DNA of 64,000 nucleotides. It comes from Christiangramia crocea (lineage in GTDB: Bacteria; Bacteroidota; Bacteroidia; Flavobacteriales; Flavobacteriaceae). The stretch spans positions 1 to 64,000 of the forward strand of contig NZ_JAJSON010000025.1 of NCBI RefSeq assembly GCF_022410465.1, read 5' to 3'. The position numbers and the translations under genes are program-made. Under the pieces are notes generated by a model. That model had not been told where the DNA came from and made no database searches. It saw only the letters and a program-made list of their open reading frames with translations. Positions 436-19,426 of the stretch are shown piece by piece; positions within the stretch are counted from its first letter, which is position 1; the number at the start of each line of letters is the position of its first letter.

Positions 436-1671
436 TTAAACGGTTTTCTCAGATTGGATTAGTTTGTAAATATTATCTAGAATCCGACTGTGTTTTCTTA
501 CAAAAGGATTTGAATTATCCCATACATATCCCGCCAGTACCGCACAAATCTGTTCCTTGATCTGCTCATTTGGATATGGATGAAAGAATATTTCCTGTAG
601 CTTACCGGAGTACCATTCTTTTACGTAGGTAGAGAATACATTTACTCCTTTATTGATATAAGCAGAATATTCCTGTTCCCAGTCCACTTTCTCTCCATTA
701 AGTTCCCTGTAGGCAAGTTTTGCTGCGAGAAGTCCGGATTCGGTAGCAAAAGCAACACCTGAAGAAAATACAGGATCCAGGAATTCTGCAGAATTGCCTG
801 TAAGTGCAAAACCCTTACCATGAATATAATTCACATTTCTGGAAATATTCTGAAGTTTTACCGGCTCAAAACGGAATTCATAATTATCAAACCTCCCTTT
901 ATAGTAATTGGTTTCCTGTAGCATTTTTCGGAATAACACCTCATTTGTTCCTTTGAATCTATCAAACCACTCATTTGGCCCAACAAATCCAATACTGGAG
1001 GTTCCATTGGAAAAGGGAATGTACCAGAACCAGGTTTCAGTGTTCAAAACTTCAAAACTTATCTGCTCACCTTCTTTTCCTAAAGGTCTGTCTGTTTCTT
1101 CTATATGAGTGAATATTGAAGAATGATCATAGATCTTTGGTGGAGCTTCAAGTTCAAGTTTACGGGCCAGAACCCTTCCATTTCCACTGGAATCAATTAT
1201 GAAACGAGTAAAGAACTGTGATTCATATCCCGAACGGTCAATAGCCGTGATTTTCCAGATTCCATTTTGGTACTCTAGAGATTTAACTTCAGTTTCAAAC
1301 TGTATGTTAACTCCTTTTGAAGAGATTTCATCAGCCAGGACTTTATCAAAATCTGCTCTGGGCACCTGCCAGGTCCAATCCCAGCCATTTCCAAATTTTT
1401 TACTGAAATCAAAATCTGCAACGTCCTTTCCTCTAATAAAGCGGGCGCCGAATTTCTTTTGGAAGCCTTCCTTTTTTATTGCTGGTAATAACCCTGCTTC
1501 TTCAAAATTTTCCATACACCGGGGAATAAGGCTTTCACCAATGCTAAACCTTGGGAACTTCTGTTTTTCCAGAACGAGAAGGGAAGCGTTCTGTTTTTGT
1601 AAATATCCGGCAGCGACCATTCCAGATGGTCCGGCTCCAATGATGATTATATCTTTAATTTCCTTTTTCAT
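436..1671 (-). CDS. FAD-dependent halogenase-like oxidoreductase of the pigment cluster
   Basis: Predicted 411-residue flavoprotein of the tryptophan-halogenase/geranylgeranyl-reductase superfamily. Seen: an FAD-binding GAGPSG at residues 12-17; the halogenase-type motif PRFxIGESLIP at 40-50; and a WFWYIP block near residue 215 that matches the family's WxWxIP signature, which hinders monooxygenase chemistry. Family knowledge: flavin-dependent halogenases chlorinate activated aromatic rings, often on carrier proteins, and flexirubins can carry ring chlorine. It lies divergent to the tyrosine ammonia-lyase that opens the pigment cluster, so a role in halogenating the aryl head group is inferred. 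A hydroxylase or reductase role is not excluded, because the substrate site cannot be read from sequence. Confidence 0.8.
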   Translation of the reverse strand: MKKEIKDIIIIGAGPSGMVAAGYLQKQNASLLVLEKQKFPRFSIGESLIPRCMENFEEAGLLPAIKKEGFQKKFGARFIRGKDVADFDFSKKFGNGWDWTWQVPRADFDKVLADEISSKGVNIQFETEVKSLEYQNGIWKITAIDRSGYESQFFTRFIIDSSGNGRVLARKLELEAPPKIYDHSSIFTHIEETDRPLGKEGEQISFEVLNTETWFWYIPFSNGTSSIGFVGPNEWFDRFKGTNEVLFRKMLQETNYYKGRFDNYEFRFEPVKLQNISRNVNYIHGKGFALTGNSAEFLDPVFSSGVAFATESGLLAAKLAYRELNGEKVDWEQEYSAYINKGVNVFSTYVKEWYSGKLQEIFFHPYPNEQIKEQICAVLAGYVWDNSNPFVRKHSRILDNIYKLIQSEKTV

Positions 1672-1693
1672 AGATCAGAAAGAGTGCGATAGA

Positions 1694-1701
1694 CAAACTT
1701 A
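1694..1701 (-). promoter_or_regulatory. Candidate -7 box upstream of the halogenase-like gene
   Basis: Minus-strand TAAGTTTG matches TAnnTTTG and would start transcription near 1687, about 16 bases before the ATG at 1671. No TTG sits at the ideal -33 spacing, so this is a partial match. Confidence 0.4.
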
Positions 1702-1737
1702 AAGAGAATGTATGAAATGATGCGAAATATTTCTTGA

Positions 1738-1767: not shown

Positions 1768-1790
1768 AGTTCCTGAGATATAAGCAAAAA

Positions 1791-2205: not shown

Positions 2206-3738
2206 ATGCTGAATCTAGAAAATGCACTGGAACTTGTCGATTTTTACAGAGTTCTTTTTGATAATGAGCAAATTGACCTCGATAAAAAAACATTAAAACG
2301 ACTTGATGAAAGTTTCAGTTTCCTGAAAGATTTTTCTCAAAATAAGATAATTTACGGTGTAAATACCGGTTTTGGACCTATGGCTCAGTATAAAATAGAG
2401 AATGGCGACAGGGTCAATCTTCAGTTAAACCTTATTAGAAGTCATGCTACGGGTGCCGGGGAAATCATGGAGCCGCTTTATGTAAAGGCTTTGATGCTGG
2501 CTCGTTTAAACACTCTTTGCCTTGGGAAATCGGGAATTCATTCTTCTGTTGCAAGAACTATGATCGATATGATCAATAAGAATGTCACCCCACTTATTTT
2601 TGAACACGGTGGGGTAGGCGCTTCAGGGGATCTTGTTCAGCTGGCTCATCTTGCCCTTGTTTTGATAGGAGAGGGAGAGGTTTTTTATAAAGGAAAAAGA
2701 AGACCCACAAAAGATGTTTTCGATGAGCTGAATATTAAACCGGCTCAGATCAAAATTCGTGAAGGACTGGCGTTGATGAATGGAACCTCGGCGATGACGG
2801 GGATAGGCATTGTTAATGTCATCTACTCCAAAAGACTGCTGGGATGGGTAATATTCTGCAGTTCGGTGATCAATGAGATCGTGGAGGCTTATGATGACCA
2901 TCTTTCGGAAGAACTAAATTCATCCAAACTTCATCCAGGCCAGCAGCGAATTGCAAAACATATGCGGAGGCATCTGGCCGATTCTCAGCTTACAAGGGAC
3001 CGGAATGAACATCTTTACACTAATGGAGCTGATAAGAACACTTTTTTCAAGGAAAAGGTTCAGGAATACTATAGCTTAAGATGTGTTCCCCAGATTCTGG
3101 GTCCGGTTTCCGATACGATAGATAACTCAAGAAAGATTCTCATTGAGGAAGTAAATTCGGCGAATGATAATCCCATTATTGATGTTGAAACGGAACATGT
3201 ATATCATGGCGGGAATTTTCACGGTGACTATGTTTCCCTGGAAATGGATAAATTAAGATTGGTGATCACCAAGACCGCTATGCTTGCTGAAAGACAGTTG
3301 AATTATCTTCTCAATTCCAAACTAAACGATATTTTACCTCCATTTGTAAATCTTGGCAAATTAGGTCTGAATTTCGGAATGCAGGGTGCACAATTTACCG
3401 CGGTCTCCACCACGGCAGAAAACCAGATGCTCTCAAATTCAATGTACGTTCATAGTATCCCGAACAATAACGATAATCAGGATATTGTGAGCATGGGAGC
3501 CAATTCGGCTAATATTACCCGGAAGGTGATTGATAACAGTTTTGAGGTACTCTCTACCGAACTGGCCACCATTATTCAGGCCCTTTATTATTTGGATTTT
3601 GATAAGAAACTGTCTTCGGCAACCAAATCAAAACTTGAGATTCTGAGATCTATCATTCCTCCAATTAAAGATGACAGGCCATTATATACAGAGATCTCAA
3701 AACTGAAGGATTATTTAAGAAATAACGAAGCCTATTAA
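2206..3738 (+). CDS. Tyrosine ammonia-lyase (HAL/PAL/TAL family)
   Basis: A 510-residue aromatic amino acid lyase predicted to deaminate L-tyrosine to p-coumarate, the aryl starter of flexirubin-type polyenes. Seen: the cofactor-forming Ala-Ser-Gly triad (MIO) at residues 139-141 within GGVGASGDL; the catalytic-Tyr motif YGVNTGFG near residue 50; the substrate-selectivity stretch LIRSHATGAG, which as I recall it matches the characterised Flavobacterium johnsoniae TAL (LIRSHSSGTG) rather than plant PAL; and the conserved NSANDNPI and QDIVSMG blocks. The length is normal. It is the first gene of a long co-directional pigment operon and is followed after one base by the ketoreductase. Histidine could be a secondary substrate, but the pigment context and close likeness to the flavobacterial TAL favour tyrosine. 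Confidence 0.93.
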   Translation: MLNLENALELVDFYRVLFDNEQIDLDKKTLKRLDESFSFLKDFSQNKIIYGVNTGFGPMAQYKIENGDRVNLQLNLIRSHATGAGEIMEPLYVKALMLARLNTLCLGKSGIHSSVARTMIDMINKNVTPLIFEHGGVGASGDLVQLAHLALVLIGEGEVFYKGKRRPTKDVFDELNIKPAQIKIREGLALMNGTSAMTGIGIVNVIYSKRLLGWVIFCSSVINEIVEAYDDHLSEELNSSKLHPGQQRIAKHMRRHLADSQLTRDRNEHLYTNGADKNTFFKEKVQEYYSLRCVPQILGPVSDTIDNSRKILIEEVNSANDNPIIDVETEHVYHGGNFHGDYVSLEMDKLRLVITKTAMLAERQLNYLLNSKLNDILPPFVNLGKLGLNFGMQGAQFTAVSTTAENQMLSNSMYVHSIPNNNDNQDIVSMGANSANITRKVIDNSFEVLSTELATIIQALYYLDFDKKLSSATKSKLEILRSIIPPIKDDRPLYTEISKLKDYLRNNEAY

Positions 3739-3739
3739 T

Positions 3740-4471
3740 ATGAAATATGCACTGGTAACCGGAGGGTCAAGAGGGATTGGGAAAGCCATTTGTATTCGCA
3801 TTGCTTCCGATCTTAAATATAATATACTCCTGAATTATCATTCTAATACCGGGGCCGCTCAAGAAACCAAATCAGAAATAGAGAAAATGGGGCTTAAATG
3901 CGATATCCTGAGATTTGATGTAGCCGATCATGATTCAACTCAAAATTCAATTGAAGACTGGAAAAAAGAAAACCCGGAGGCTAAAATAGAAGTGCTTGTA
4001 AATAATGCAGGCATTACTAAAGACGGACTATTTATCTGGACCAATCAGGAAGCATGGGACTCAGTTATCAATACCAGTCTCAACGGATTTTATAACGTGA
4101 CCCAGGCTGTTTTAAAGGATATGCTAAGGAGCAGGTTTGGAAGAATCATCAATATAGTGTCGCTCTCCGGGCTAAAAGGAAACCCGGGGCAGGTAAATTA
4201 TTCGGCTGCGAAGGGAGCCATGATCTCGGCTACCAAGGCTCTCGCTCAGGAAATTGGTAAACGTAAGGTGACGGTGAATGCCGTAGCTCCCGGATTTATT
4301 AAATCAGATATGACCAGCGATTTTAATGAAGATGAGCTTAAAAAACTTATTCCTCTTAACCGGTTTGGAGAGCCAGAGGAAGTGGCTAATCTGGTAAGCT
4401 TTCTGGCTTCGGAAAAGTCCGCTTATATTACGGGGGAAGTAATAAATATTAACGGAGGTTTATATTCATAG
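3740..4471 (+). CDS. 3-oxoacyl-ACP reductase, FabG-like SDR
   Basis: A 243-residue classical short-chain dehydrogenase that reduces beta-ketoacyl-ACP with NADPH during polyene chain extension. Seen: cofactor motif TGGSRGIG near residue 8; structural NNAG near 91; catalytic Ser in the IVSLSG segment (~140); Tyr154 and Lys158 in NYSAAKGA; and C-terminal SAYITGEVININGG, typical of FabG. It starts one base after the TAL stop and ends four bases before the acyltransferase. The primary FabG of fatty acid synthesis is normally elsewhere, so this copy is inferred to be dedicated to the pigment (ApeQ-type role). Confidence 0.92.
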   Translation: MKYALVTGGSRGIGKAICIRIASDLKYNILLNYHSNTGAAQETKSEIEKMGLKCDILRFDVADHDSTQNSIEDWKKENPEAKIEVLVNNAGITKDGLFIWTNQEAWDSVINTSLNGFYNVTQAVLKDMLRSRFGRIINIVSLSGLKGNPGQVNYSAAKGAMISATKALAQEIGKRKVTVNAVAPGFIKSDMTSDFNEDELKKLIPLNRFGEPEEVANLVSFLASEKSAYITGEVININGGLYS

Positions 4472-4475: not shown

Positions 4476-5354
4476 ATGGCAACCTGGAAAGGAAAATCTC
4501 GGGGTACGCTTTTAGGCTTCAAAATCTATGTGCAGATAATTAAGAAAACCGGTCTGTATTCGGCTTATTTCGTACTTCTTTTTGTTGCAGCCTATTTTAT
4601 CTTTTTTTCTTTTACTTCTACTAAAAGCACCTACTATCTATTCAGAAAAAGACTTGGCTATTCACCAATAAATTCGGCGTTGCATGTATACCGGAGCTAT
4701 TTTACTTTTGGCCGTATTCAACTGGACCGTATTGCCATTACCAGTGGTTTGAAACATAAATTCACTTTCGAGTTTGATGGAATTGAACATATTAACGCTC
4801 TTTTGAAGCAGAAAAAAGGAGGGATATTACTCACAGCTCATATTGGGAATTTTAATCTTGCCAAGCATTTCTTTGAAGAAAAACATTCTGAAGCCACCGT
4901 TAATCTTGTGGTTACAGATTTTGAACACAGGCAGATCAGGAATTATCTGGAGTCGGTCACCGGAAAGTCGGAAGTCAGGATCATAGTTTTGAAAGAAGAC
5001 CTCAGTCACGTCTTTAAGATGAAGGAAGCCCTGGCTAATAACGAATTACTTGTTTTTGCGGCAGACAGATATTTAAAACATTCCAAAACCTATAAGGCTG
5101 AATTTCTGGGAGAAACGGTTAATTTTCCACAGGGGCCGTTTAAACTTGCAGCAAGAAATAAAATTCCTGTCTTATTTGTACATTTAATGCGTGAAAAGAA
5201 TTTTCACTATCATTTTTATGCCAGGCCATATATTCCAAAAGAATTTAAAGCCAGTGAAATCTTAAAGGCTTATTTGGAAGACCTGGAGAAAATGGTGAAA
5301 AAATATCCTCATCAGTGGTATAATTATTATGACTACTGGAATGATTTCAGTTAA
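4476..5354 (+). CDS. LpxL/HtrB-like lysophospholipid acyltransferase
   Basis: A 292-residue membrane acyltransferase of the lipid A biosynthesis (LpxL/LpxM) superfamily. Seen: one N-terminal hydrophobic segment (~residues 26-46) and the block GGILLTAHIGNFNLA with His122, matching the family's H..GN(W/F) active-site motif. Known family members move acyl groups from ACP to lipid acceptors. APE and flexirubin clusters regularly encode such an enzyme, so transfer of the finished aryl-polyene acyl chain to a membrane acceptor is the likely job. The acceptor cannot be read from the sequence. It overlaps nothing; the dehydratase starts 3 bases later. Confidence 0.85.
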   Translation: MATWKGKSRGTLLGFKIYVQIIKKTGLYSAYFVLLFVAAYFIFFSFTSTKSTYYLFRKRLGYSPINSALHVYRSYFTFGRIQLDRIAITSGLKHKFTFEFDGIEHINALLKQKKGGILLTAHIGNFNLAKHFFEEKHSEATVNLVVTDFEHRQIRNYLESVTGKSEVRIIVLKEDLSHVFKMKEALANNELLVFAADRYLKHSKTYKAEFLGETVNFPQGPFKLAARNKIPVLFVHLMREKNFHYHFYARPYIPKEFKASEILKAYLEDLEKMVKKYPHQWYNYYDYWNDFS

Positions 5355-5356: not shown

Positions 5357-5806
5357 ATGGCAGAAAACCTTTTGCATCACCCTATAACCGCCCTTGAAGA
5401 GATCATAAAATTAATTCCTCAGAAAGAACCCTTTGTTTTTGTAGATACTCTTTTTGAATACACTGCTTTGACTGGGATTACAGGTTTTACGGTGCCGGAA
5501 GAAAATGTTCTGCTGGATGAGAACAGACTTTCTGAAAGTGGATTAATAGAACATATGGCACAGAGTATGTCACTGCACAGGGGTTACCAGGGATCTCTTA
5601 ACGGACAAACAAAACCCAAGACCGGTTTTATCGGGCTTATCAAAACAGTGGAGATATTTGATTGCCCTGAAGTAGGAGAGAAGTTAAAGACCTATGTTGA
5701 GATTCTTCATGAGATCATGAACGTGACTTCTGTATCTGCTAGAACCGAAAATGAGATGGGAAAGGTGATCGCCACTTCCGAAATGAAAACCGTTACGGTA
5801 GAATGA
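5357..5806 (+). CDS. ApeP-like hotdog-fold 3-hydroxyacyl-ACP dehydratase
   Basis: A 149-residue hotdog-fold protein. It begins with the family-like run ITALEEIIKLIPQKEPFVFVD and contains the conserved LIEHMAQSMSLHRGY helix, in which the Glu-His pair lies where FabZ/ApeP-type dehydratases place the catalytic residues. It would remove water from the 3-hydroxyacyl-ACP intermediate to give the enoyl unit that stays as a polyene double bond. Its last four bases (ATGA) overlap the start of the thioesterase, so the two are translationally coupled. A non-catalytic hotdog partner for the second dehydratase at 11860 is an alternative. Confidence 0.8.
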   Translation: MAENLLHHPITALEEIIKLIPQKEPFVFVDTLFEYTALTGITGFTVPEENVLLDENRLSESGLIEHMAQSMSLHRGYQGSLNGQTKPKTGFIGLIKTVEIFDCPEVGEKLKTYVEILHEIMNVTSVSARTENEMGKVIATSEMKTVTVE

Positions 5807-6222
5807 ATGAAAGTGCATTGAAGAGTATCATAAAATTGAAAGTTCGCTTTCATGAATGTGATCCTTTACAGATCGTCTGGCATGGGAATTACCTCAAATA
5901 TTTTGAAGAAGGCCGGGAAGATTTCGGTAAAAAACATAATATTTCTTACCTGCACGCAATAGAGAAAGGCTTCTCAACACCTATAGTTAAATCTGTTTGT
6001 GAACATAAACTTCCTCTTAAGTATGGAGATGAGTTTGAAGTGGAGACCTCTTTTGTGAATTCTGCAGCTGCAAAGATCATTTTTCAGTATAAAATATTCT
6101 CTTCGGGGAAACTTATCTGTACCGGTGAAACAACTCAGGTCTTTACCGATAAAAATTCAGAATTAGTGCTTAACAATCCGCCGTTTTTCTTAGATTGGAA
6201 ATCGAAAATGGGCTTGATTTAA
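5803..6222 (+). CDS. Acyl-CoA/ACP thioesterase, 4-hydroxybenzoyl-CoA thioesterase family
   Basis: A 139-residue hotdog-fold thioesterase. The segment VRFHECDPLQIVWHGNYLKYFEEGRE matches the YbgC/4HBT signature, with the catalytic Asp in HECDP and the HGNYLKYFE helix. It would hydrolyse or proofread thioesters on the aryl-polyene ACP (ApeH-type role). The ATG at 5803 overlaps the stop of the upstream dehydratase (ATGA), and the next gene starts directly after its stop codon. Confidence 0.88.
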   Translation: MNESALKSIIKLKVRFHECDPLQIVWHGNYLKYFEEGREDFGKKHNISYLHAIEKGFSTPIVKSVCEHKLPLKYGDEFEVETSFVNSAAAKIIFQYKIFSSGKLICTGETTQVFTDKNSELVLNNPPFFLDWKSKMGLI

Positions 6223-7368
6223 ATGAAAAGGAATTACCTGCTAAGTGATTCGATTATTTCTCCGTTGGGTTTTGGAACTGATGCAAACCTGAAGGCGATT
6301 CGTAGTGGTGGATCGGCTTTGAAATTCCATACTAATTCACGATTCCTTAAAGACGGTTTTTATGCAGGTCTGATCCCTGAAAAAGCTATAGATGAACATT
6401 TTAGTGATATTGGTGCTCCGGCTATGTTTACCAAGCTTGAAAAACTGATGATCCTTGCCGTTCAGCAGATTCTGGATCAAAATCCGGGGCTTGAAATGCA
6501 AGATACAGGGCTTATAATTTCTACCACCAAAGGAAGTATTGACCAGTTAGGAAAAGATGAGTTTCCGGAAGACAGGCTTTTCCTGTGGAAACTGGCAGAA
6601 GTTATAGCAGATTTCTTCCAAATTAAAAAGAAACCCGTGGTGGTTTCTAATGCCTGTATTTCGGGTGCACTCGCCGTTAAGACCGCAAACGATTTGATAA
6701 CAGCCGGAAGGTTTTTAAATGCTATTGTGGTTGCTGGAGATCTAGTGTCAGACTTTGTGCTTTCAGGCTTTCAGTCATTTCAGGCTATAAGTGAAAAACC
6801 ATGCAGGCCTTTCTCCAGTGACCGGACGGGGATCAGTCTTGGAGAAGCATCTGCAGCAATATTAATTGGCCCGGAGGCTGGTAAAAATGAGGATAGAATT
6901 TCATATATCGATGCCTGTACAGCCAATGATGCGAACCATATTTCAGGACCAAGCAGAACAGGGGAGGGGCTTTATTTAAGTATATCCAGGCTGCTTGCGG
7001 CTAATAATATCGAACCTGAAGAAATAGATTATTTGTCCGCTCACGGTACCGCTACAGAATTCAATGATGAGATGGAGGCTATTGCTTTTAATCGCGCCGG
7101 ACTGGAGAAGGTTCCCGTGAACAGTTTCAAAGGATATTACGGGCATACTTTAGGCGCATCTGCTTTAATAGAGACCATTCTCACAAAACACAGTCTGCTG
7201 GAAAATGAACTTTTTACTTCGCTGAATTTCTCAGAGGTGGGGGTTTCTATACCCTTGAATATTATTAAGGAAAATCGTAATAAGAAACTAAGTCTCGCAT
7301 TAAAAACGGCTTCCGGTTTTGGCGGGTGTAACCTGGCCATGTTATTAAAAAAGGAAGTATATGAGTAA
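6223..7368 (+). CDS. Beta-ketoacyl-ACP synthase (KAS I/II type), catalytic
   Basis: A 381-residue ketosynthase with a complete Cys-His-His triad: Cys145 in NACISGA, His274 in SAHGTATEFND and His308 in YYGHTLGAS. It condenses malonyl-ACP with the acyl or aryl chain. It abuts the thioesterase stop and overlaps the next frame by eight bases. That next protein is a truncated ketosynthase-like polypeptide, so this enzyme may work as a heteromer with it. Slightly shorter than the usual ~410 residues. One of two apparently active ketosynthases in the cluster, corresponding to the ApeR-type position in aryl-polyene clusters. Confidence 0.9.
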   Translation: MKRNYLLSDSIISPLGFGTDANLKAIRSGGSALKFHTNSRFLKDGFYAGLIPEKAIDEHFSDIGAPAMFTKLEKLMILAVQQILDQNPGLEMQDTGLIISTTKGSIDQLGKDEFPEDRLFLWKLAEVIADFFQIKKKPVVVSNACISGALAVKTANDLITAGRFLNAIVVAGDLVSDFVLSGFQSFQAISEKPCRPFSSDRTGISLGEASAAILIGPEAGKNEDRISYIDACTANDANHISGPSRTGEGLYLSISRLLAANNIEPEEIDYLSAHGTATEFNDEMEAIAFNRAGLEKVPVNSFKGYYGHTLGASALIETILTKHSLLENELFTSLNFSEVGVSIPLNIIKENRNKKLSLALKTASGFGGCNLAMLLKKEVYE

Positions 7369-7966
7369 GAACCTATTCATAAAGGATTCGGTGATCATAC
7401 GGAATGGAAAGCTACTCAGGAACGGGAAAGTCGTCGTGCAAAACTATCCCGATCAAAAGCTTTCATCATTTCTGAAGGAAATTTATAAAGATCAGGAACT
7501 TAAGTATCCCAAATTCTTTAAAATGGACAAGCTATCCAAACTGGGGTATCTGGCAAGCGAGATCTTGTTCCAGAATATAGAACCTGATCCTGAAACTGCT
7601 CTTGTATTTTCCAACGCTGCTTCCAGTCTTGAAACTGATAATGCCTATGCAGAAACCATGAATGATTTCCCGTCTCCTTCAGTTTTTGTTTATACCTTGC
7701 CAAATATTATGCTTGGGGAAATAAGCATTAGATTTCAGCTTAGATCCGAGAATATATTCCTGGTTAGTGAAGACTTCGACCCAGGTCTTTTTATAGACTA
7801 TTCCAAAACATTATTTCAACAGGAAAAAGCCAGGGAAATTGTTTGTGGCTGGGTTGACTTGCACAATAGCGATTATGATGTATTTTTGTGCCATATTGGC
7901 CCTGAGGGACGATACGATTTTAATGAAGAAGAGCTAAAGAAATTATACTTACCTACACATGAGTGA
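7361..7966 (+). CDS. Truncated ketosynthase-like protein without active-site residues
   Basis: A 201-residue protein resembling only the middle of the ketosynthase N-terminal half. Visible similarities are ALVFSNAASSLETD (KS: TGxGxxxxD), PSPSVFVYTLPNIMLGEISIRFQLR (KS: PxxxxxTxPNxxxGxIAIxxGLxG) and the following strand. Where the KS catalytic Cys should stand there is LVSEDFDPG, with no Cys, and the C-terminal half with both histidines is absent. It overlaps the preceding active ketosynthase by 8 bases and the ACP gene by 8 bases. Inferred: a scaffold or chain-length partner rather than an enzyme. I cannot assign a specific function. Confidence 0.65.
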   Translation: MSKNLFIKDSVIIRNGKLLRNGKVVVQNYPDQKLSSFLKEIYKDQELKYPKFFKMDKLSKLGYLASEILFQNIEPDPETALVFSNAASSLETDNAYAETMNDFPSPSVFVYTLPNIMLGEISIRFQLRSENIFLVSEDFDPGLFIDYSKTLFQQEKAREIVCGWVDLHNSDYDVFLCHIGPEGRYDFNEEELKKLYLPTHE

Positions 7967-8216
7967 CCTGCATACTGAATTAAAAAAAAGCATTATTGAA
8001 CAGTTAAACCTTGAAGATATGGAGGTTAGCGAAATAGATAATGACGAACCTCTTTTTGGGGATGGTCTGGGGCTGGACAGTATCGATGCCCTTGAACTTA
8101 TAGTGCTGCTGGAAAAGGACTACGGAATTAAACTTTCAGATCCCCAGCAGGGAAAGGAAGTCTTTAATTCTATAAATACAATGGCTGATTTTATCGAGAA
8201 AAACCGGACCAGGTAA
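7959..8216 (+). CDS. Acyl carrier protein
   Basis: An acidic 85-residue carrier protein. Ser41 in the GLDSIDALELIVLLE motif is the expected phosphopantetheine attachment site. It would carry the coumaroyl starter and the growing polyene. It is the only ACP in the window, whereas known aryl-polyene clusters usually encode two. The start overlaps the end of the ketosynthase-like gene by eight bases and the next ketosynthase begins three bases after its stop. Confidence 0.95.
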   Translation: MSDLHTELKKSIIEQLNLEDMEVSEIDNDEPLFGDGLGLDSIDALELIVLLEKDYGIKLSDPQQGKEVFNSINTMADFIEKNRTR

Positions 8217-11224: not shown

Positions 11225-11834
11225 GATCTGTATATTTTTCCTTAGCCTTAATATGGTAGCTCAAAAGGGTGTTTTAAACAATGCTGAGGAAGATGCCTTT
11301 AAAACCAGGGTGATCGAAAAAGCAAATGGTATAAACAGCTTCTCGGCTGAATTTATGCAGACCAAGCACATGAAGGTGATGGATGAAAACCCGGAAAGTC
11401 AGGGAAAAGTTTATTACAAGTCTCCAGATCTTCTAAAATGGGAGTATCTCAGGCCTTATGATTACCAGATCCTTTTTAAAGACTCCAAACTCTATATCAT
11501 GGAAGACGGACAGTTGTCAGAAGTGGATTTGTCTTCAAATAAACTTTTTGAAAAAATGGGAGAACTGGTTGCCGGCAGTGTGAATGGCAAAATTCTGCAG
11601 GCAGATAAAGACTTTACTATTACTTATCATAGAGACAATCAGAATATCAAAGCAAGGATAATCCCGAAGGATCAAGGCCTTAGTGGAATGTTCAGTGAGA
11701 TATGGGTCAATTTTAATTCAGATCATCTCATTAATTCGGTGCGGTTAATAGACCCTTCAGGTGATTATACCGAGATCTTCATGAAAAACATTAAAATTAA
11801 TCAGTCCATACCTCCTTCTGTTTTTCAAAACTAA
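11211..11834 (+). CDS. LolA-like outer-membrane lipoprotein carrier
   Basis: A periplasmic LolA-fold carrier of about 207 residues. The ATG at 11211 opens a clear signal peptide (MRILKICIFFLSLNMVAQ). An upstream in-frame TTG at 11190 only adds a short polar head. Conserved LolA-type text includes FSAEFMQTKHMKVMDENPESQGKV, PDLLKWEYLRPYDYQIL and IWVNFNSDHLINSVRL. APE and flexirubin clusters carry a dedicated LolA homologue (ApeF-like position) thought to shuttle the hydrophobic product across the periplasm, a job this one would share with the MMPL transporter. It overlaps the deacetylase gene by 14 bases. Confidence 0.88.
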   Translation: MRILKICIFFLSLNMVAQKGVLNNAEEDAFKTRVIEKANGINSFSAEFMQTKHMKVMDENPESQGKVYYKSPDLLKWEYLRPYDYQILFKDSKLYIMEDGQLSEVDLSSNKLFEKMGELVAGSVNGKILQADKDFTITYHRDNQNIKARIIPKDQGLSGMFSEIWVNFNSDHLINSVRLIDPSGDYTEIFMKNIKINQSIPPSVFQN

Positions 11835-11859: not shown

Positions 11860-12225
11860 ATGATTTTAAAGGAATTTTACGAGGTTTTACAGACGGAGCA
11901 TAAAGAAGACCTTTACCATACTACTCTCAGGGTAAATAAAGATCACGAGATCTATAAAGGGCATTTCCCTGGAAGACCTGTAACCCCGGGAGTTGTTCTA
12001 ATGCAATTGTTCAAGGAGGAAGCAGAACGGATTTATGAAAATTCACTTCAGTTGGCCCGGGCAGACAATGTGAAATTCACCGCTGTTTTTGATCCTACTG
12101 AAAATGAGGAACTGATTCTGGAATCCCAGCTTGAAAAAAACGGGGACTTTATTAAACTTAAAGGAATAGCTAAGAATCATAAGGGTATAGTTTTGAAGAT
12201 CAACTCCCTTTATAAGCGCCTTTAA
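11860..12225 (+). CDS. FabA/FabZ-like 3-hydroxyacyl-ACP dehydratase, ApeI-like
   Basis: A 121-residue hotdog protein with the canonical dehydratase motif GHFPGRPVTPGVVLMQL, in which the His is the catalytic base. It would catalyse dehydration during polyene elongation. It is the second dehydratase of the cluster and may pair with the ApeP-like protein at 5357, as dehydratase heterodimers are described for aryl-polyene synthesis. The gene starts 25 bases after lolA and ends about 65 bases before the next gene, where a new promoter is likely. Confidence 0.85.
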   Translation: MILKEFYEVLQTEHKEDLYHTTLRVNKDHEIYKGHFPGRPVTPGVVLMQLFKEEAERIYENSLQLARADNVKFTAVFDPTENEELILESQLEKNGDFIKLKGIAKNHKGIVLKINSLYKRL

Positions 12226-12289: not shown

Positions 12290-13495
12290 GTGAAAAAAGA
12301 ACCGGTTTTTCAACCAAGATTCGAAAAGCTTAACTGCTGTGTTATTGTACCTACTTACAATAATGCACATTCTCTTGCGTCTTTTCTTGAAGACCTGAAA
12401 CTTTATACCCGGAATCTAATTATTATAAATGACGGGTCAACCGATGCTACGGCGAAGATCCTGAATAAACATTCAGAATTACATCGTAAGGCTCATTCTG
12501 AAAATAAAGGTAAAGGCATTGCTCTTAAAACCGGATTTGCCTTTGCCGAAGAACTGGGATACGATTATGCGATCACAATAGATTCTGACGGGCAGCATTA
12601 TCCCGATGATCTTGATGTTTTTCTAACGGAACTGGAGAAACGTAAAGAACATGATCCTGAACTGCTTCTTGTTGGTGACCGGAACATGGGAAGAGACGGT
12701 ATTCCTGGAAAAAGCAGTACCGGAAACAGGTTTTCCAATTTCTGGTTTTTAGTGGTGACAGGAATCGAGTTACACGATACGCAAAGCGGGTACAGATTAT
12801 ATCCTGTAAAACTTATTAATTCACTTAAGCTCATTACCTGGAAGTTCGAACTGGAGATCGAGGTGCTGGTAAAAGCAGCCTGGCAAAAAGTAGAAGTAAA
12901 GAATATTCCCATCAAGGTCTTTTATGAGGAAGGCGAAAGAGTAACTCACTTCAGGCCTTTCTGGGATATCGTTCGCATTGTTCTTCTTTATATGTGGTTT
13001 GTATTGGTGAGTTTCTTTTATATACATCCAAGAAATAAATATCAGGATTTTAAGAATAAAGGTTTCCGGAGGTTCTGGAAGGAAGATATAGTTAAAAGTC
13101 AGGAGCCGCCTCATAAAAAGGCAGCAGCCATTGCCTTGGGCATATTTGTAGGAATTTCACCCTTCTGGGGGATACATACGTTACTGGTCTTTACTCTGGC
13201 AGCGGTTTTCCGGTTAAATAAGGTTGTAGCCTTCTTATTCTCTAATATAAGTATACCGCCTTTAATCCCTGTGATTATATATGCCAGTTACCAGGCGGGT
13301 TCTCTTATTTCAGGGAAAGGTTTTGACTGGGATTTGGAACTTCAGAAATTTGAAACCGGAACCGATATTTTTATGGGCCTCTGGCAATATATTATGGGAA
13401 GTTTCGCTCTGGCAATTGTGACGGCCTTTAGTCTGTGGATTGTATTTTATTTTTTATTTTCGGTCTTTAATCAAAAGCAGGTGGTGAAACCTTAA
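12290..13495 (+). CDS. Family 2 glycosyltransferase fused to DUF2062
   Basis: A 401-residue fusion. Residues ~15-240 form a GT2 (GT-A) domain with VIVPTYNNAHSL, NDGSTDATA and the metal-binding Asp-Ser-Asp at 98-100. A hydrophobic segment follows (~235-250, VLLYMWFVLVSFFYI). Residues ~270-390 are DUF2062, with KKAAAIALGIFVGISPFWGIH and two or three membrane spans. The enzyme would move an activated sugar to a membrane-bound acceptor on the cytoplasmic face, like dolichol-phosphate sugar synthases. The start is GTG at 12290. The stop TAA overlaps the next ATG (TAATG). The same architecture recurs in flexirubin/aryl-polyene clusters, so the pigment or its lipid anchor may be glycosylated. Confidence 0.85.
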   Translation: MKKEPVFQPRFEKLNCCVIVPTYNNAHSLASFLEDLKLYTRNLIIINDGSTDATAKILNKHSELHRKAHSENKGKGIALKTGFAFAEELGYDYAITIDSDGQHYPDDLDVFLTELEKRKEHDPELLLVGDRNMGRDGIPGKSSTGNRFSNFWFLVVTGIELHDTQSGYRLYPVKLINSLKLITWKFELEIEVLVKAAWQKVEVKNIPIKVFYEEGERVTHFRPFWDIVRIVLLYMWFVLVSFFYIHPRNKYQDFKNKGFRRFWKEDIVKSQEPPHKKAAAIALGIFVGISPFWGIHTLLVFTLAAVFRLNKVVAFLFSNISIPPLIPVIIYASYQAGSLISGKGFDWDLELQKFETGTDIFMGLWQYIMGSFALAIVTAFSLWIVFYFLFSVFNQKQVVKP

Positions 13496-16485
13496 TGCAC
13501 AAAGCTTTTCTCAATATTCATAACTTTCTGAAAAACCGTAAGATCCTCGGTTTTTCAATACTGTTCATTTACATTTTCATAACCTCACTTATTGCCTGGA
13601 ATATTGAGCTTAAAGAAGATATTACCAAGCTGATTCCCTCTGGGGAAAAGCAGAATGTATTAAAGAAAGTGCTAAGGGTAACGGACCTTTCCGATAAACT
13701 GATTATCAGTATATCTGCTGAAACCGATGCAACCTCTCCAGATACTCTGGTTGCCTACGCCAACAGACTTACGAAAAGGATAGAAAGTGAATTACCTGAA
13801 TATGTTTCTGAAATTAAGGGAAAAGTGCCTGAAAAGGATATCCGGCAGGTATACAATTTTGTTCATGATAATCTTCCGGTATTTCTTCAGGAACAGGATT
13901 ACGAAAAAATATCTAACCGGTTATATCCAGACAGCATACGCAGAAGACTCGATTCAGGATACAGGCAGCTCATGTCTCCAACCGGTTTTGTAACCAAGGA
14001 TTACTTTCTTGCTGATCCTCTGGGTTTTACAAATCTAGGGCTTTCTAAACTTCAGGAATTACAGGTAGGGGATAATTTCGGTATCTATAAAAATTACCTG
14101 ATCACAAAAGACAGAAAAAATATAATTCTATTCCTGGATTCGGCCTTACCATCTTCAGAAACCAATAGGAATCAGGATTTTATAATTGCCCTAGAAGAAA
14201 TAACCGGTAGCCTGAATAGTGAATATAAAGAAGTTGAAGCCAGTTATTTTGGAGGTATGTTGTATTCACTGGCAAATGCCAACAGGATTAAGAAAGATAT
14301 CAGGCTCACTATTGGTATTGCGGTTGTATTACTTCTTATTTTACTGATATCCTTTTATCGTAAGATCTATGTTCCGGTTCTTCTTTTTATCCCAGGTATA
14401 CTGGCGGGAATTTCAGCTATTGCGGTACTAAGTATAACGAAAAGCAATGTGTCTTCAATTTCTTTAGGGATAGGAGCCATACTTTTAGGGATCACACTGG
14501 ATTATGCCCTTCATATCCTCACCCATTTTAGAAATAACCGGGATATCACTCGGCTTTACAGGGAAATTACCAGGCCTATCCTTACGAGCAGTACTACCAC
14601 TGCAGTGGCATTTCTCTGTCTCATTTTTTTACAAAGTGAAGCTCTTAATGACCTGGGAATCTTTGCCTCCATAAGCGTTTTGCTTTCTTCGGTTTTTGCA
14701 CTGATTCTTATTCCTCTGTTCTATAAACCTGAAGTGGAGACCAATAAGAACAGGACGTTTTTAGATAAAATAGCTTCTGTTGATTATTCGAGAATAAGAC
14801 CTTTGGTTATAACAGTAATTTTGCTGTTTGTTATCTCTCTTTTCTTCTTTAACCGGGTTGAATTCAATAATGACCTTTCAAAACTTAATTACGAACCTCC
14901 CGGCCTCAGGGAAACTGAGAATAGGGTAGAAGCTCTGGCCGGAAGGGCTGGAAAGACCATCTATATGGTAGCCTATGGGAACTCCATTGATGAGGCTCTC
15001 CAGGAAAATAACCGTCTGTACCAGCGTTTACAGGAGTTCGAGAATGAAGGCAGAATTCAAAGTTTCAGCAGTATAGGAGGAGTGGTTTTATCTACTTCCA
15101 CCCAGAACGATAGAATTGGGAACTGGGATTCGTTCTGGACACCTGAAAGAACCGATAGCCTTAAGCAAAATATTACTACAATTTCAGCGGAATATGGATT
15201 CAGGGCCGAAACGTTTGATCGCTTTTATGATCAGCTTAAAGAAGACTTTTCTAATATTGATCTCGCAGATTATAAAAATGCCGGTGGATTATATCTCAAT
15301 GATTTCATTTCTGAAGGAGAAAATATTGCTACGGTGACCAGTACAGTGAGTCTTGAAGAAGATAAGAGCGCTGAATTCATTTCCAATTTCGAAGATGAAG
15401 AAGGTATTTTTGCCCTGGACCGGAGAGCGATGAATCAGAATTTCCTCGGAAGCCTGAAAGAAGATTTCAATATGCTTATAATGATTTCGGTTATTGCGGT
15501 ATTTGTAATTCTTCTTATTTCCTACCGTAACCTTGAAATTAGTCTTTTTACGCTACTCCCAATTGCCATCACCTGGATCTGTGCGCTTGGCCTGATGGCA
15601 ATGCTGGATATTGAATTCAATATTCTGAATATCATTATATCCACATTCATCTTTGGACTCGGTTTGGATTACAGTATTTTTATAACCAATTCCTGCCTTA
15701 ATGAATATGAGACCGGAAGATCAGATCTTAAAACTTATCAAACATCCATACTTATTTCGGTGATCACTACTTTACTGGGAATGGGCGCTTTGATATTTGC
15801 TCAGCATCCGGCACTTAGATCGGTTTCCGTGGTATCAATTATTGGAGTTGTAACAGCAGTTATTGTCAGCTTTGTGATCCAACGGGCAATTTTCAGAAAG
15901 CTGATATTAAAAAGGGCAAAAGAAGGAAAACCTCCTTTTCATTTTGGTCAGTTAGCCGATTTCGGAGGAAGGTTAAGCCAATCAGAAAGTGAAAAGCTAT
16001 ACCGGAAACGTGCGATATTGAGCAACTACCGTTATAAATCTGTTTTTCCTAAAGTAAAACAGAAATTCAGAAATATACGGGAAAAAAATCTTCGGATAAG
16101 CCGGTACATAGAGGATGGGGAAAGTATTTCCATTGTAAATTCCGATTATGGAGTTATTCCTTTATTCCTTTCCTATAAGTTTGAAAATGCCAGGATCCAT
16201 GCTTATGAGAATAAGGAGTACCGTTTCAGGGTCTCCAGTAGTATTCCGCGCTCAAATTCGGCAGAGATCTTTTTCTATTCCAGCATAATTGAATTGCCTG
16301 CAAGTAAGGTTTTCATTATAAACGGCAGCTTTCAGGAAACCGATGTTCTCGTGGATCTGATAAAGAGGGAAGCTGAAAAGGTGATCTTTATAGATTCAGA
16401 TTTCCCCAATCGCTGGCTGTTGGATATGAATTTTGAGATAGTGTACCGCCAGAACAATATTCTTGTATTTCGTAAAACTGATTAA
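13495..16485 (+). CDS. MMPL/RND-family exporter with a C-terminal methyltransferase-like domain
   Basis: A 996-residue RND-superfamily transporter. It has an N-terminal membrane helix (~20-38), a large periplasmic loop, a first membrane bundle (~265-410), a second loop, and a second bundle (~665-805) with GLGLDYSIFITNSCLNEY, typical of MMPL proteins. It likely exports or flips the lipidic pigment. Residues ~820-996 are an extra soluble domain. The stretch from ~860, with ENLRISRYI-like text, SISIVNSDYGVIPLFLS and ARIHAYENKEYRF, lines up with a Rossmann methyltransferase, but its glycine-rich SAM loop is poor. So it may be a decayed or repurposed methyltransferase. Translationally coupled to the upstream GT2 and directly followed by the C45 lipoprotein. 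Confidence 0.85.
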   Translation: MHKAFLNIHNFLKNRKILGFSILFIYIFITSLIAWNIELKEDITKLIPSGEKQNVLKKVLRVTDLSDKLIISISAETDATSPDTLVAYANRLTKRIESELPEYVSEIKGKVPEKDIRQVYNFVHDNLPVFLQEQDYEKISNRLYPDSIRRRLDSGYRQLMSPTGFVTKDYFLADPLGFTNLGLSKLQELQVGDNFGIYKNYLITKDRKNIILFLDSALPSSETNRNQDFIIALEEITGSLNSEYKEVEASYFGGMLYSLANANRIKKDIRLTIGIAVVLLLILLISFYRKIYVPVLLFIPGILAGISAIAVLSITKSNVSSISLGIGAILLGITLDYALHILTHFRNNRDITRLYREITRPILTSSTTTAVAFLCLIFLQSEALNDLGIFASISVLLSSVFALILIPLFYKPEVETNKNRTFLDKIASVDYSRIRPLVITVILLFVISLFFFNRVEFNNDLSKLNYEPPGLRETENRVEALAGRAGKTIYMVAYGNSIDEALQENNRLYQRLQEFENEGRIQSFSSIGGVVLSTSTQNDRIGNWDSFWTPERTDSLKQNITTISAEYGFRAETFDRFYDQLKEDFSNIDLADYKNAGGLYLNDFISEGENIATVTSTVSLEEDKSAEFISNFEDEEGIFALDRRAMNQNFLGSLKEDFNMLIMISVIAVFVILLISYRNLEISLFTLLPIAITWICALGLMAMLDIEFNILNIIISTFIFGLGLDYSIFITNSCLNEYETGRSDLKTYQTSILISVITTLLGMGALIFAQHPALRSVSVVSIIGVVTAVIVSFVIQRAIFRKLILKRAKEGKPPFHFGQLADFGGRLSQSESEKLYRKRAILSNYRYKSVFPKVKQKFRNIREKNLRISRYIEDGESISIVNSDYGVIPLFLSYKFENARIHAYENKEYRFRVSSSIPRSNSAEIFFYSSIIELPASKVFIINGSFQETDVLVDLIKREAEKVIFIDSDFPNRWLLDMNFEIVYRQNNILVFRKTD

Positions 16486-18150
16486 ATGAGTTTCCGTGGC
16501 ATTGGCATATTATTGATCATTCCCACTCTGCTTTTTTCCTGTGGGGTAAAAAGATCTTTGGAGCAAAGGCCTGATATCAGTGGAATTGAGAAAATAGACA
16601 GTACACGAATTAAACATAGCGAAACTCATTTTAGCCTGGGGAATAATCAGCTTTATAAAAATGAGTATGGAATCTGGGAACTTTATATTGAAGGCGATGC
16701 CCTGGAAAGAGGAATAGCCAACGGCAGTCTCACCCGGGAGCTTATCAACCATCAGGAAGTGGCTTTTATGAATAAATTGCAGGCAATGGTCCCTTCTGAG
16801 AATTATCGTGAGTTTTTAAAGAAAGTGGTTTCCTGGTTCAACAGAAAAATGTACAAGCATGTTCCCGGGGAATATCAGCAGGAAATCTATGGGGTATCCC
16901 GGTTCGCATCTAAAAGTTATGATGATTTTGCTCCGGCTTATGTCAGGATGCTCTACCTTCATGGAGCACACGACATCGGGCATGCGCTGCAGGACTTAAT
17001 GCTGGTAGGTTGTACCTCGTTTGCCGCCTGGGATCAAAAGACTCAAGGCGGCGAATTATTACTGGGTCGCAATTTTGATTTTTACGCGGGTGATGAATTC
17101 GGAAAGCAGAAGATCATGGCATTCGTAAAGCCTGATACGGGACATAAATTTATGATGTATACCTGGGGCGGAATGATTGGCGTAGTAAGCGGAATGAACG
17201 AGAAAGGAATAACGGTGACGATCAATGCAGGAAAATCGAAAATGCCTTTTGTGGCTAAAACTCCAATAAGCCTGGTAGCAAGGGAGATCCTGCAATATGC
17301 CGGCAGTACGTCCGAGGCGATCGAGATTGCCAGAAAAAGAGAGGTATTTGTTTCAGAAGCCATTATGGTGGGTAGTGCAGAGGAAAGAAAGGCGATCCTT
17401 ATTGAAGTTTCTCCCTCTAATTTCGGGGTTTATGAGGTGCAAAATTCCAGTGAACTGGTTTGCAGCAATCATTTCCAGAGTGAAGCTTACGCAGATGATA
17501 ATAAGAATTTAAAAGCCATAGAGGAAAGCCATTCAAAATACCGTTACGACCGGATGAAAGAACTGCTTTCCAATACGGAAAATCTAAACCCTGAAAAGGC
17601 GGTTGATATTTTAAGGAATAGAAGAGGTATAAATGACGTCGCCCTTGGCTATGGAAATGAAAAAGCCATCAATCAGTTACTTGCACATCATGGAGTTGTT
17701 TTTAAGCCTGAAAAAAGGATAATGTGGGTTTCGGCGAATCCCTATCAAATGGGGGTGTTCGTGGCTTATGATCTTGAAGAGGCCTTTTCAGAATTTCAGA
17801 AGGGGAACTTAACGGCTTCAGTTTCAAAACCAGAAAAGAATATTCCGGAAAGTAATTTCATTCATACAAAAGCTTTTAGGGATTATGAAGCCTACAGGAA
17901 GCTGGAGAATCAGGTTAAAACAAGTTTATCTGAAGATATTCCTGTGACAATAGACCAAGCCCAAAAACTGGTTAAGCTTAATCCTGATTTCTGGGAAGCC
18001 TGGTATCTGGCAGGATTGATCTACTATGAAAATAAGGATTATAAGAATGCAGTTATCCGTTTCAAACAGGCAGTTAGGAGAGAAGTTACTACAAAACCTG
18101 ATGAGGAAAAGATCGCTGAAATGATCAAAAAAAGCTATCGAAAATTATAA
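16486..18150 (+). CDS. C45-family NTN hydrolase/acyltransferase lipoprotein with TPR tail
   Basis: A 554-residue predicted lipoprotein (signal LLIIPTLLFSC, lipid Cys19). Its central domain belongs to the acyl-CoA:6-aminopenicillanic-acid acyltransferase / phospholipase B-like NTN superfamily. LVGCTSFAAW places the likely autocatalytic nucleophile at Cys176, followed by GELLLGRNFDFYAG and NEKGITVTINAGKS, both typical. The C-terminal ~60 residues (PDFWEAWYLAGLIYYENKDYKNAVIRFKQAV) form one TPR repeat. It starts directly after the MMPL stop. Family members cleave or form amide or ester bonds. Acting at the envelope beside an exporter, it is a candidate for the acyl-transfer or release step of the pigment; that substrate is inferred. 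Confidence 0.82.
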   Translation: MSFRGIGILLIIPTLLFSCGVKRSLEQRPDISGIEKIDSTRIKHSETHFSLGNNQLYKNEYGIWELYIEGDALERGIANGSLTRELINHQEVAFMNKLQAMVPSENYREFLKKVVSWFNRKMYKHVPGEYQQEIYGVSRFASKSYDDFAPAYVRMLYLHGAHDIGHALQDLMLVGCTSFAAWDQKTQGGELLLGRNFDFYAGDEFGKQKIMAFVKPDTGHKFMMYTWGGMIGVVSGMNEKGITVTINAGKSKMPFVAKTPISLVAREILQYAGSTSEAIEIARKREVFVSEAIMVGSAEERKAILIEVSPSNFGVYEVQNSSELVCSNHFQSEAYADDNKNLKAIEESHSKYRYDRMKELLSNTENLNPEKAVDILRNRRGINDVALGYGNEKAINQLLAHHGVVFKPEKRIMWVSANPYQMGVFVAYDLEEAFSEFQKGNLTASVSKPEKNIPESNFIHTKAFRDYEAYRKLENQVKTSLSEDIPVTIDQAQKLVKLNPDFWEAWYLAGLIYYENKDYKNAVIRFKQAVRREVTTKPDEEKIAEMIKKSYRKL

Positions 18151-18151
18151 T

Positions 18152-19426
18152 ATGAAGGACCTTCATTTTCAAAATATTGAAATCATAAAAGCAAAACAGT
18201 GGGATTTACTGAAATCTCAACTTGAATATACAGCTCAGAAATCGCCGTATTATCAGAAACTTTTCAAAGAAGAATCGCTTCAGGTAAAGGATATTAATTC
18301 AATTGAAGACTTTAGAAAACTACCAATAACAAGCAAGGAAGACCTTCAGCATCATAATTCAGAATTCATCTGTGTTCCTGAAGATGATATTATCGATTTT
18401 GTGACCACCTCCGGAACTTTGGGAAGTCCCGTAAATTTCGCCCTTAATGAGGCCGATCTTGAGCGTCTGGCTGAGAATGAATTCCAGTCATTCAGCATTG
18501 CCGGAATAAAAAAAGAAGATAAGGTCCAGATCACTACCACGTTAGACCGCAGGTTCATGGCTGGAATGGCCTATTTTCTAGGTCTCAGAAAGTTAGGTGC
18601 AGGAATTATCAGGACTGGTAGCGGACTTCCTCAGTTGCAATGGGAAAGCATTGAAAGATTCAAACCAGATTACCTGGTAGCCGTTCCCTCATTCCTGCTG
18701 AAAATGATCCAATATGCAAGAGAGAACAATATTGATTACACTAATTCTTCCATCGAAGCGGCAATTTGTATTGGAGAACCACTAAGAAACCAGCAGTTTG
18801 AATTGAATGCCCTGGGAAAGAAGATCACCGAGCTCTGGGATATAGAACTTTTTTCTACCTATGCCTCCACAGAGATGTCTACTGCCTTTACAGAATGTCC
18901 ATATCACGCCGGTAATCATATACTGAGCAAACTTATCTATACAGAAATCCTTGATGAGGATAGAAAACAGGTGAAACCTGGCGAAATAGGAGAGCTGGTG
19001 GTGAGTCCGCTGGGAACCCGGACGATGCCCCTGTTAAGATTTGCTACAGGCGATATGCTTGCTTATTATGAAGGAAAGTGTAAATGCGGAAGAAATACAC
19101 CAAGACTGGGACCGGTAGTAGGCAGGAAGCAACAGAAGATGAAGCTGAAGGGCACAAGCCTATACCCGCAACATATTATTGAGGTTATGAATTCCTATGG
19201 AAAAATAAAGTCATTTGTTATTGAAGCCAAAAGAGATGATCTCGAAAATGACCTTGTTTCGGTCAAGGTTACTGAGTCCTTCAATGATATTAGTGGCTTA
19301 AAAGACTATTTTAAATCACAATTACATGTTACTCCGGAAATTGAAAGAATAAAAGAACAGGAAATTGAGAAATTAAAATTCCCAAAAGGAAGTAGAAAAC
19401 CTCAGGTTTTCAGAGATCTCAGGTAA
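18152..19426 (+). CDS. PaaK-like AMP-forming acyl/aryl ligase
   Basis: A 424-residue adenylate-forming enzyme of the phenylacetate-CoA ligase family. Seen: TTSGTLGSPVNF (AMP/phosphate loop), the YASTEM block near residue 235, FATGDMLAYYEGKCKCGRNTPRLGPVVGR (core hinge region with the family's zinc-like CxC pair) and a C-terminal KLKGTSLYPQHI. It activates an aryl acid with ATP, here presumably p-coumarate made by the TAL, and loads it onto CoA or directly onto the cluster ACP. It is the last gene of the operon and its TAA abuts the stop codon of the convergent methyltransferase gene with no spacer. Confidence 0.88.
   Translation: MKDLHFQNIEIIKAKQWDLLKSQLEYTAQKSPYYQKLFKEESLQVKDINSIEDFRKLPITSKEDLQHHNSEFICVPEDDIIDFVTTSGTLGSPVNFALNEADLERLAENEFQSFSIAGIKKEDKVQITTTLDRRFMAGMAYFLGLRKLGAGIIRTGSGLPQLQWESIERFKPDYLVAVPSFLLKMIQYARENNIDYTNSSIEAAICIGEPLRNQQFELNALGKKITELWDIELFSTYASTEMSTAFTECPYHAGNHILSKLIYTEILDEDRKQVKPGEIGELVVSPLGTRTMPLLRFATGDMLAYYEGKCKCGRNTPRLGPVVGRKQQKMKLKGTSLYPQHIIEVMNSYGKIKSFVIEAKRDDLENDLVSVKVTESFNDISGLKDYFKSQLHVTPEIERIKEQEIEKLKFPKGSRKPQVFRDLR

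Follow-up and report, generated by a model that had tools for sequence, protein, structure and literature searches.

Gene content and integrity of the cluster

The DNA analysed here, hereafter called the window, comprises bases 1-64000 of contig C17 (731,960 bases) of the Christiangramia crocea genome, an assembly of 3.9 Mb that is reported to be 100% complete. Near its left end, at 436-19426, lies a gene cluster for an aryl polyene (APE) of the flexirubin (flx) lineage, which is predicted to be a yellow-orange membrane pigment; flexirubins are aryl polyenes esterified to a dialkylresorcinol (DAR), which is made by DarA and DarB. Judged by the FlxA protein of the cluster, the nearest named relatives are Christiangramia oceanisediminis (85%) and C. 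echinicola (83%), which indicates a Christiangramia (Gramella)-type marine flavobacterium. The cluster holds 18 open reading frames (ORFs), namely one divergent halogenase-like flavoprotein gene and 17 tightly packed genes on the + strand. The features are as follows.

1-63, - strand: tRNA gene truncated by the contig end, left boundary (Rfam RF00005, 42.3 bits, 3' cut)
192-274, - strand: tRNA gene bounding the cluster on the left (Rfam RF00005, 60.2 bits)
436-1671, - strand: halogenase-like FAD enzyme, divergent to flxA (Trp_halogenase, 67.8 bits)
2206-3738, + strand: flxA, tyrosine ammonia-lyase (NF053541, 858.6 bits, cut-off 700)
3740-4471, + strand: flxB, ketoreductase of the short-chain dehydrogenase/reductase (SDR) type (NF053542, 410.5 bits, cut-off 340)
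4476-5354, + strand: LpxL-like membrane acyltransferase (PF03279, 60.1 bits)
5357-5806, + strand: hot-dog dehydratase-like protein (weak FabZ match, 21.9 bits, cut-off 113; no Pfam match)
5803-6222, + strand: 4HBT thioesterase (PF13279, 67.8 bits; TIGR00051, 74.3 bits)
6223-7368, + strand: ketosynthase a (PF02801, 68.6 bits; Cys-His-His present)
7361-7966, + strand: conserved family-less protein (no Pfam or NCBIfam match; occurs in 35/35 clusters)
7959-8216, + strand: acyl carrier protein, ACP (PF00550, 42 bits; NF006617, 86.6 bits; carrier Ser41)
8220-9404, + strand: ketosynthase b (PF00109, 96.2 bits; PF02801, 108.3 bits; Cys-His-His present)
9397-10464, + strand: ketosynthase c, without the active-site Cys, chain-length-factor-like (PF00109, 33.5 bits)
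10454-11224, + strand: polysaccharide-deacetylase-like protein (PF01522, 123.2 bits)
11190-11834, + strand: lolA2 (NF053544, 228.9 bits, cut-off 125)
11860-12225, + strand: FabA/FabZ-like dehydratase (PF07977, 25.4 bits, cut-off 23)
12290-13495, + strand: fusion of a family 2 glycosyltransferase (GT2) with DUF2062 (PF00535, PF09835)
13495-16485, + strand: MMPL/RND-type exporter (PF03176, 72.6 bits)
16486-18150, + strand: C45 Ntn acyltransferase/hydrolase with a lipobox-like N-terminus (NF040521, 236.1 bits)
18152-19426, + strand: flxY, coumaroyl-CoA ligase (NF053551, 651.5 bits, cut-off 520)

All the activities that an earlier note on this DNA had named were found as intact ORFs with family support, and FlxA, FlxB, LolA2 and FlxY exceed their curated cut-offs. 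FlxA and FlxY together place the cluster with the flexirubin type. The core of an APE pathway is present as well, consisting of a ketosynthase with a chain-length-factor-like partner, a ketoreductase, dehydratases (with weak matches), an ACP and a starter ligase, and so are the genes for attachment and export, i.e. the acyltransferase, the GT2 protein, the thioesterase, LolA and the MMPL protein. A methyltransferase of the FlxJ type was not found in the cluster. The gene of the family-less protein adjoins a ketosynthase and an ACP in all of the 35 clusters compared below.

The catalytic residues of FlxA, FlxB, the ACP and ketosynthases a and b are intact, and the Ala-Ser-Gly of the MIO group is present in FlxA. 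In ketosynthase c, Ala occupies the position of the active-site Cys, where the residue varies among relatives. Cys176 of the C45 enzyme is present in 30/30 proteins and a loose lipobox pattern is matched in 28/30; since the N-terminus is lipobox-like by this loose pattern, the enzyme probably acts outside the inner membrane. Comparison with the nearest genome, G015, gave dN/dS values of 0.02-0.10 for 18 of 18 genes, which are rough ratios as dS is about 0.9 or more. Because the ORFs are intact, the catalytic residues are in place and dN/dS is low, the cluster is real and appears to be under purifying selection.

A conserved Lys and the motif WxWxIP mark flavin-dependent halogenases. In the halogenase-like protein and its relatives, the Lys, both Trp and the Pro are identical in 124 of 124 aligned rows and the Ile in 122 (own and duplicate rows included). 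Among solved structures, the best match is 3nix with 436 bits, whose name is Flavoprotein/dehydrogenase; the protein also aligns with chains named halogenase, which score 134.6 bits and below. We rejected the gene as a mark of clusters that lack the DAR genes, because it occurs in all 35 compared clusters, 19/19 with the DAR genes (DAR+) and 16/16 without them (DAR-less). The proposal of the earlier note that the product is possibly chlorinated is therefore retained in part: chlorination by this enzyme is plausible, but it would be no special feature of the DAR-less form, because the gene accompanies both kinds of cluster. A literature search found no paper joining flexirubin and a flavin-dependent halogenase. 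In the stretch of genome G192 (L120, L139), the halogenase-like gene is located at the far end behind flxY and not beside flxA.

Searches for the dialkylresorcinol genes

As the earlier note stated, DarA and DarB are missing between 436 and 19426. Its doubt about the unseen left flank was justified, because the window begins with the first base of contig C17 and this contig starts within a tRNA gene, with 435 bases between the contig end and the first gene of the cluster. This position is in favour of the explanation that an assembly gap at the contig edge hides DarA and DarB and that the strain makes an ordinary flexirubin. The same explanation is favoured by a false negative of this kind in our survey of the family (G072, in which the contig with FlxA is cut short, another contig carrying DarH and part of DarB), by the genomes G119 and G325, in which DarA and FlxA are on different contigs, and by Chitinophaga pinensis, in which DarAB is unlinked from flxA-flxY (PMC3992019; here and below, statements on published work refer to the parts of the cited papers that were available).

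DarA and DarB queries were taken from the cluster of Mangrovimonas spongiae (L020), in which both genes follow flxB-flxC-flxD-acyltransferase. Scored from locus L114 of the same genome, the DarB of this species reaches 673 bits with the curated model NF053539, above the cut-off. The other query gene we take to be darA from its place directly before the curated DarB and from its occurrence only in genomes with FlxA. No NCBIfam or Pfam model fits this DarA, which shows only a weak flavodoxin match and no close solved relative; in a plasmid collection it gave three distant Streptomyces matches.

The results showed that neither DarA nor DarH (NF053550) occurs in any of 24 genomes of the Christiangramia-type genus, which include the own genome and of which 22 are at least 90% complete and eight are in one contig. 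The genus-wide search for DarB in these 24 genomes gave only FabH-level matches of at most 24.5 bits, and the DarB model reached at best 28.5 bits in the own genome against a cut-off of 550. The searches work, because positive controls were found: the DarA query matches 53 of 299 family genomes, and among 37 chosen genomes DarH exceeds its cut-off in 20 and DarB in 19. FlxA was found in 21 of the 24 genus genomes, and two of the three without it are 67-73% complete. A ketoacyl synthase III (KASIII) gene at C26:31926 was rejected as DarB, being without DarA beside it and unmatched in the DarB searches (E 0.01, 0.001).

The left flank could be followed in relatives. Genome G015 shares window positions 1-435 at 95% identity and carries the same tRNA pair at L167:18941-19227, and left of this pair there are no dar genes over 19 kb; none was found either in the left flanks of G006, G005, G014, G011 and G012 (about 14-15 kb each). 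The identity of 95% over positions 1-435 was seen although the dS of the neighbouring genes is near 1. Furthermore, darAB in DAR+ relatives lies between an acyltransferase and a dehydratase gene, which in the window are only 2 bases apart, with no relic between them, so that the block is missing inside the window itself. The alternatives in the earlier note that DarA and DarB lie elsewhere or just outside the window were thus not borne out: neither gene is in the assembly by whole-genome search, nor in the six left flanks. On these genus-wide and whole-genome results we rejected the assembly-gap explanation, which we consider extremely improbable.

A second alternative is that a phenolic anchor in place of DAR comes from a type III polyketide synthase (PKS) cluster located some 50 kb beyond flxY on the right. 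Apart from the KASIII-type C-terminal domain, its genes were named by eye:

L152:8979-15219 = G000:C17:68979-75219, just right of the window: type III PKS, FAD reductase, methyltransferase, SDR, FabZ-like, ketosynthase and phosphopantetheinyl transferase (PPTase)-like genes

The PKS gene is an intact ORF accompanied by methyltransferase-, SDR-, FabZ- and ketosynthase-like genes (C17:68979-74398), and alkylresorcinols can be products of type III PKSs. However, such a PKS occurs in 10/17 genomes with FlxA but not DarA and in 30/53 with both (Fisher p = 1.0; 9/16 and 31/54 with G072 moved, p = 1.0), and also in 64 of 229 FlxA-free genomes. As it shows no association with the DAR state, we rejected it as the DAR substitute and regard this role as very unlikely.

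Distribution and history of the DAR module

FlxA occurs in 70 and DarA in 53 of the 299 family genomes, and all 53 genomes with DarA also have FlxA; the 53 include G223, which has a fragment of about 50 residues, and G050, which has a partial match. Seventeen genomes have FlxA but not DarA, and after correction of G072, which is DAR+, 16 of the 70 are DAR-less by whole-genome searches for DarA, DarB and DarH. Two genes below the cut-offs were seen off the contigs with the flexirubin cluster, i.e. a second DarB-like gene (394.7 bits, G036:C12:543156-544262) and a second DarH-like gene (189.2 bits, G208:C23:69630-70586).

The 16 DAR-less clusters were compared with 19 DAR+ clusters picked by hand from the 53, with G072 and the relic-bearing G223 excluded. 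Eight genes are present in 19/19 DAR+ and 0/16 DAR-less clusters: darA, darB, darG (NF053545), darH (a BtrH-related acyltransferase, NF053550) and the genes for an ABC ATPase, an ABC-2 permease, a WG-repeat protein and a 164-residue protein. A third hot-dog gene follows the same pattern (18/19 and 0/16), and flxC, flxD, lolB2 and a CrtI-like oxidoreductase gene are missing in 14 of the 16 DAR-less clusters, G122 and G074 being the two that keep them. Kept in 16/16 are the halogenase-like gene, FlxA, FlxB, the acyltransferase, two dehydratase-like genes, ketosynthases a to c, the conserved unknown, the ACP, the deacetylase, LolA, GT2, MMPL, C45 and FlxY; the thioesterase is kept in 14/16. Among named loci, of which only the available stretch was scored, the short layout was found in Christiangramia, Salegentibacter, Gillisia, a metagenome-assembled genome of Marixanthomonas and UBA1903; flxC is retained, with darAB unseen in the stretch, at one locus of Aquimarina, one of Tenacibaculum and two of Winogradskyella.

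These retained genes bear on a further reading, in which the thioesterase releases the aryl polyene as a free, chlorinated acid. The thioesterase and halogenase-like genes are present and chlorinated flexirubins are known (PMC3992019), but the retention of acyltransferase, GT2, LolA2, MMPL and C45 in 16/16 clusters argues for attachment and export, and the halogenase-like protein, with 3nix as its nearest solved relative, is not a proven halogenase. We consider a free acid unlikely.

The genes lost together with darAB also give a clue to their function. Since 14/16 DAR-less clusters also lack flxC and flxD and the dar locus of Azoarcus lists its own ketosynthase and ACP (PMC3949708), flxC and flxD may serve DAR. 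In DAR+ clusters, attachment of the polyene to DAR is probably the task of DarH, because its family bears the name of a BtrH-related acyltransferase and darH was present or absent together with darAB in every cluster compared; the Azoarcus counterpart is listed as a BtrH-like peptidase (PMC3949708). Schoener et al. proposed FlxC among the polyene ketosynthases and FlxW for the attachment of the polyene to DAR (PMC3992019); none of the genes compared here could be matched to FlxW.

A quick maximum-likelihood tree was built from 105 FlxA proteins and rooted on two Chryseobacterium rows without a scored DAR state. Eight of the 80 named loci were dropped because their stretches end before the state is visible, three G rows are duplicates, and 13 named DAR-less loci were labelled from the available stretch and not from the whole genome. 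On this tree the DAR label changes state 8 times, at least 4 of the changes being forced by starred branches, while shuffled labels change about 25 times; the number falls to 7 when only whole-genome DAR-less labels are used, and to 6 when the relic is also left out or the G rows alone are counted. The window belongs to a starred clade whose ten rows are without exception DAR-less, and the first branch inside Flavobacteriaceae is DAR+. In G223 (L113:4051-8458), a darA relic of 49 residues was found at 7452-7598, between the acyltransferase and dehydratase genes; the third hot-dog gene is broken here as well, and remnants of the WG-repeat gene are left, so that this is a cluster caught while losing the DAR module. 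The 6-8 changes, the DAR+ first branch and this relic, taken together, favour repeated loss, and the DAR module was probably lost repeatedly as a block in related bacteria.

The product and its relation to known systems

Taken together, the most likely interpretation, in which we have reasonable confidence, is that the window holds an intact APE cluster of the flx lineage that has lost its DAR module and whose polyene is probably passed to another membrane lipid. FlxA would deaminate tyrosine to 4-coumarate and FlxY would activate the latter, as judged from the C. pinensis enzymes, which were shown to make 4-coumarate and 4-coumaroyl-CoA (PMC3992019). The ketosynthases, FlxB, the dehydratase-like proteins and the single ACP would then extend the coumaroyl unit to an omega-(4-hydroxyphenyl) polyene thioester. 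Without darA, darB and darH, the acyl chain would not be esterified to DAR; the retained membrane acyltransferase and the GT2 protein, perhaps with the C45 lipoprotein, would probably transfer the polyene to another membrane lipid, ApeD and ApeJ of E. coli being proposed lipid-attachment proteins (PMC8253772). The MMPL protein and LolA2 may move the polyene lipid to the outer membrane, a route that has also been proposed for the aryl polyene of E. coli. The ring is expected to be unmethylated, because the cluster lacks an FlxJ-type methyltransferase, and it may be halogenated. More tentatively, and with less confidence than not, several flavobacterial lineages may have independently shed the DAR half and re-anchored the polyene via existing cluster genes (the LpxL-like acyltransferase, GT2-DUF2062 and the C45 lipoprotein), which would make their products a separate class of outer-membrane pigments; in that case the genes lost with darAB, including flxC and flxD (14/16), would have a role in making or conjugating DAR and not in polyene elongation.

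Several observations weigh against an intact, re-anchored pathway and against its origin by loss. LolB2 was not detected in the window cluster with the curated models and is kept in just 2/16 DAR-less clusters, and one genus genome (G016), 100% complete, is without FlxA altogether. Loss and gain are not separable by the tree alone, many of whose branches are open, and seven of the nine long FlxA end branches are DAR-less (G135, L019, G228, G189, L028, L047 and G113), which could reflect relaxed or changed selection. These long branches look as if FlxA evolves faster without DAR. Loss of DAR can abolish the visible pigment unless it is compensated, because a darB mutation in Flavobacterium johnsoniae gave a flexirubin-negative phenotype (PMC3992019). 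C. echinicola DSM 19838 (L008) and C. portivictoriae DSM 23547 (L019) both carry the cluster and are described as having carotenoids only and no flexirubin-type pigments (PMC4891872, citing the genus description). An abundant 4-hydroxyphenyl polyene should still shift its colour with KOH. The KOH-negative DAR-less carriers need an explanation of their own, because the test seems to read the aryl end; their pigment may be scarce, masked by carotenoids, blocked at the phenol of the ring or not made in culture.

The reading of the KOH test follows from the DAR-bearing Azoarcus pigment, which showed no alkali shift (PMC3949708), so that the test probably is not diagnostic of DAR. Aequorivita aurantiaca SDUM287046, which is KOH-positive (PMC10608841), is DAR+ (L071). 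The DAR state thus fits the KOH phenotype, although three strains, two negative and one positive, are too few to prove much.

The two carriers without observed flexirubin-type pigments, together with the long FlxA branches and the missing FlxC, FlxD, LolB2 and CrtI-like genes in 14/16 DAR-less clusters, would also agree with a decaying remnant whose pigment is not made. All 18 ORFs are open, with dN/dS of 0.02-0.10 and intact catalytic residues, and FlxA is retained in 21/24 genus genomes; decay is thus quite unlikely in our opinion.

The retention of an intact polyene pathway without DAR has some consequences. Flexirubin is a chemotaxonomic marker read by the KOH colour test, and the polyene and DAR genes are shown to be separable, which casts doubt on the name flexirubin, when given from flxA alone, for 16 of the 70 genomes with flxA in our family sample. 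The genes missing with darAB (darG, darH, the ABC pair and perhaps flxC and flxD) are candidates for DAR conjugation and export. The acyltransferases still present may be the enzymes that anchor aryl polyenes in the membrane.

The earlier note considered that the product may be a new pigment. This is possible, but DAR-less APE clusters are already recognised (PMC5932025, PMC7440613, PMC3949708): APE clusters with and without DAR genes have been published, 16 of 39 genomes having the DAR genes (PMC3949708), and antiSMASH distinguishes the classes aryl polyene and aryl polyene-resorcinol in marine Flavobacteriia (PMC7440613). The clusters of marine Flavobacteriia reported by Kumagai et al. in 2018 are of the same kind, with or without darA/darB and giving "APEs or FTPs", where FTPs are flexirubin-type pigments; in the available part of that paper (PMC5932025) the lost block, its recurrence and relics are not described. 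Our literature search, mainly outside subscription papers, found no description of a modular, repeated loss of DAR or of a relic. What is new here is this modular, repeated loss and the hint that flxC and flxD serve DAR, which is a modest comparative result.

Like the flexirubin clusters of F. johnsoniae and C. pinensis, which were compared by their published descriptions (PMC3992019), the window cluster passes the FlxA, FlxB, LolA2 and FlxY models, and its shared genes keep the order of the 19 DAR+ Flavobacteriaceae clusters; unlike flexirubin clusters, it is without darA, darB, darG, darH, the ABC exporter, flxC, flxD, lolB2, flxJ and the CrtI-like gene. Arcuflavin of Azoarcus sp. BH72 likewise comes from separable polyene and DAR loci, the dar locus listing BtrH-like, ABC, ACP and ketosynthase genes, but it bears DAR, has a xanthomonadin-like polyene and shows no colour shift in alkali (PMC3949708). 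By its published gene list, the APE cluster of E. coli CFT073 has in common with the window cluster the ketosynthase, ketoreductase, dehydratase, ACP, starter ligase, acyltransferase, glycosyltransferase, thioesterase, LolA-like and RND exporter genes, and neither has DAR genes; the E. coli cluster differs in its predicted starter, 4-hydroxybenzoate instead of coumarate, and in having two ACPs instead of one (PMC8253772).

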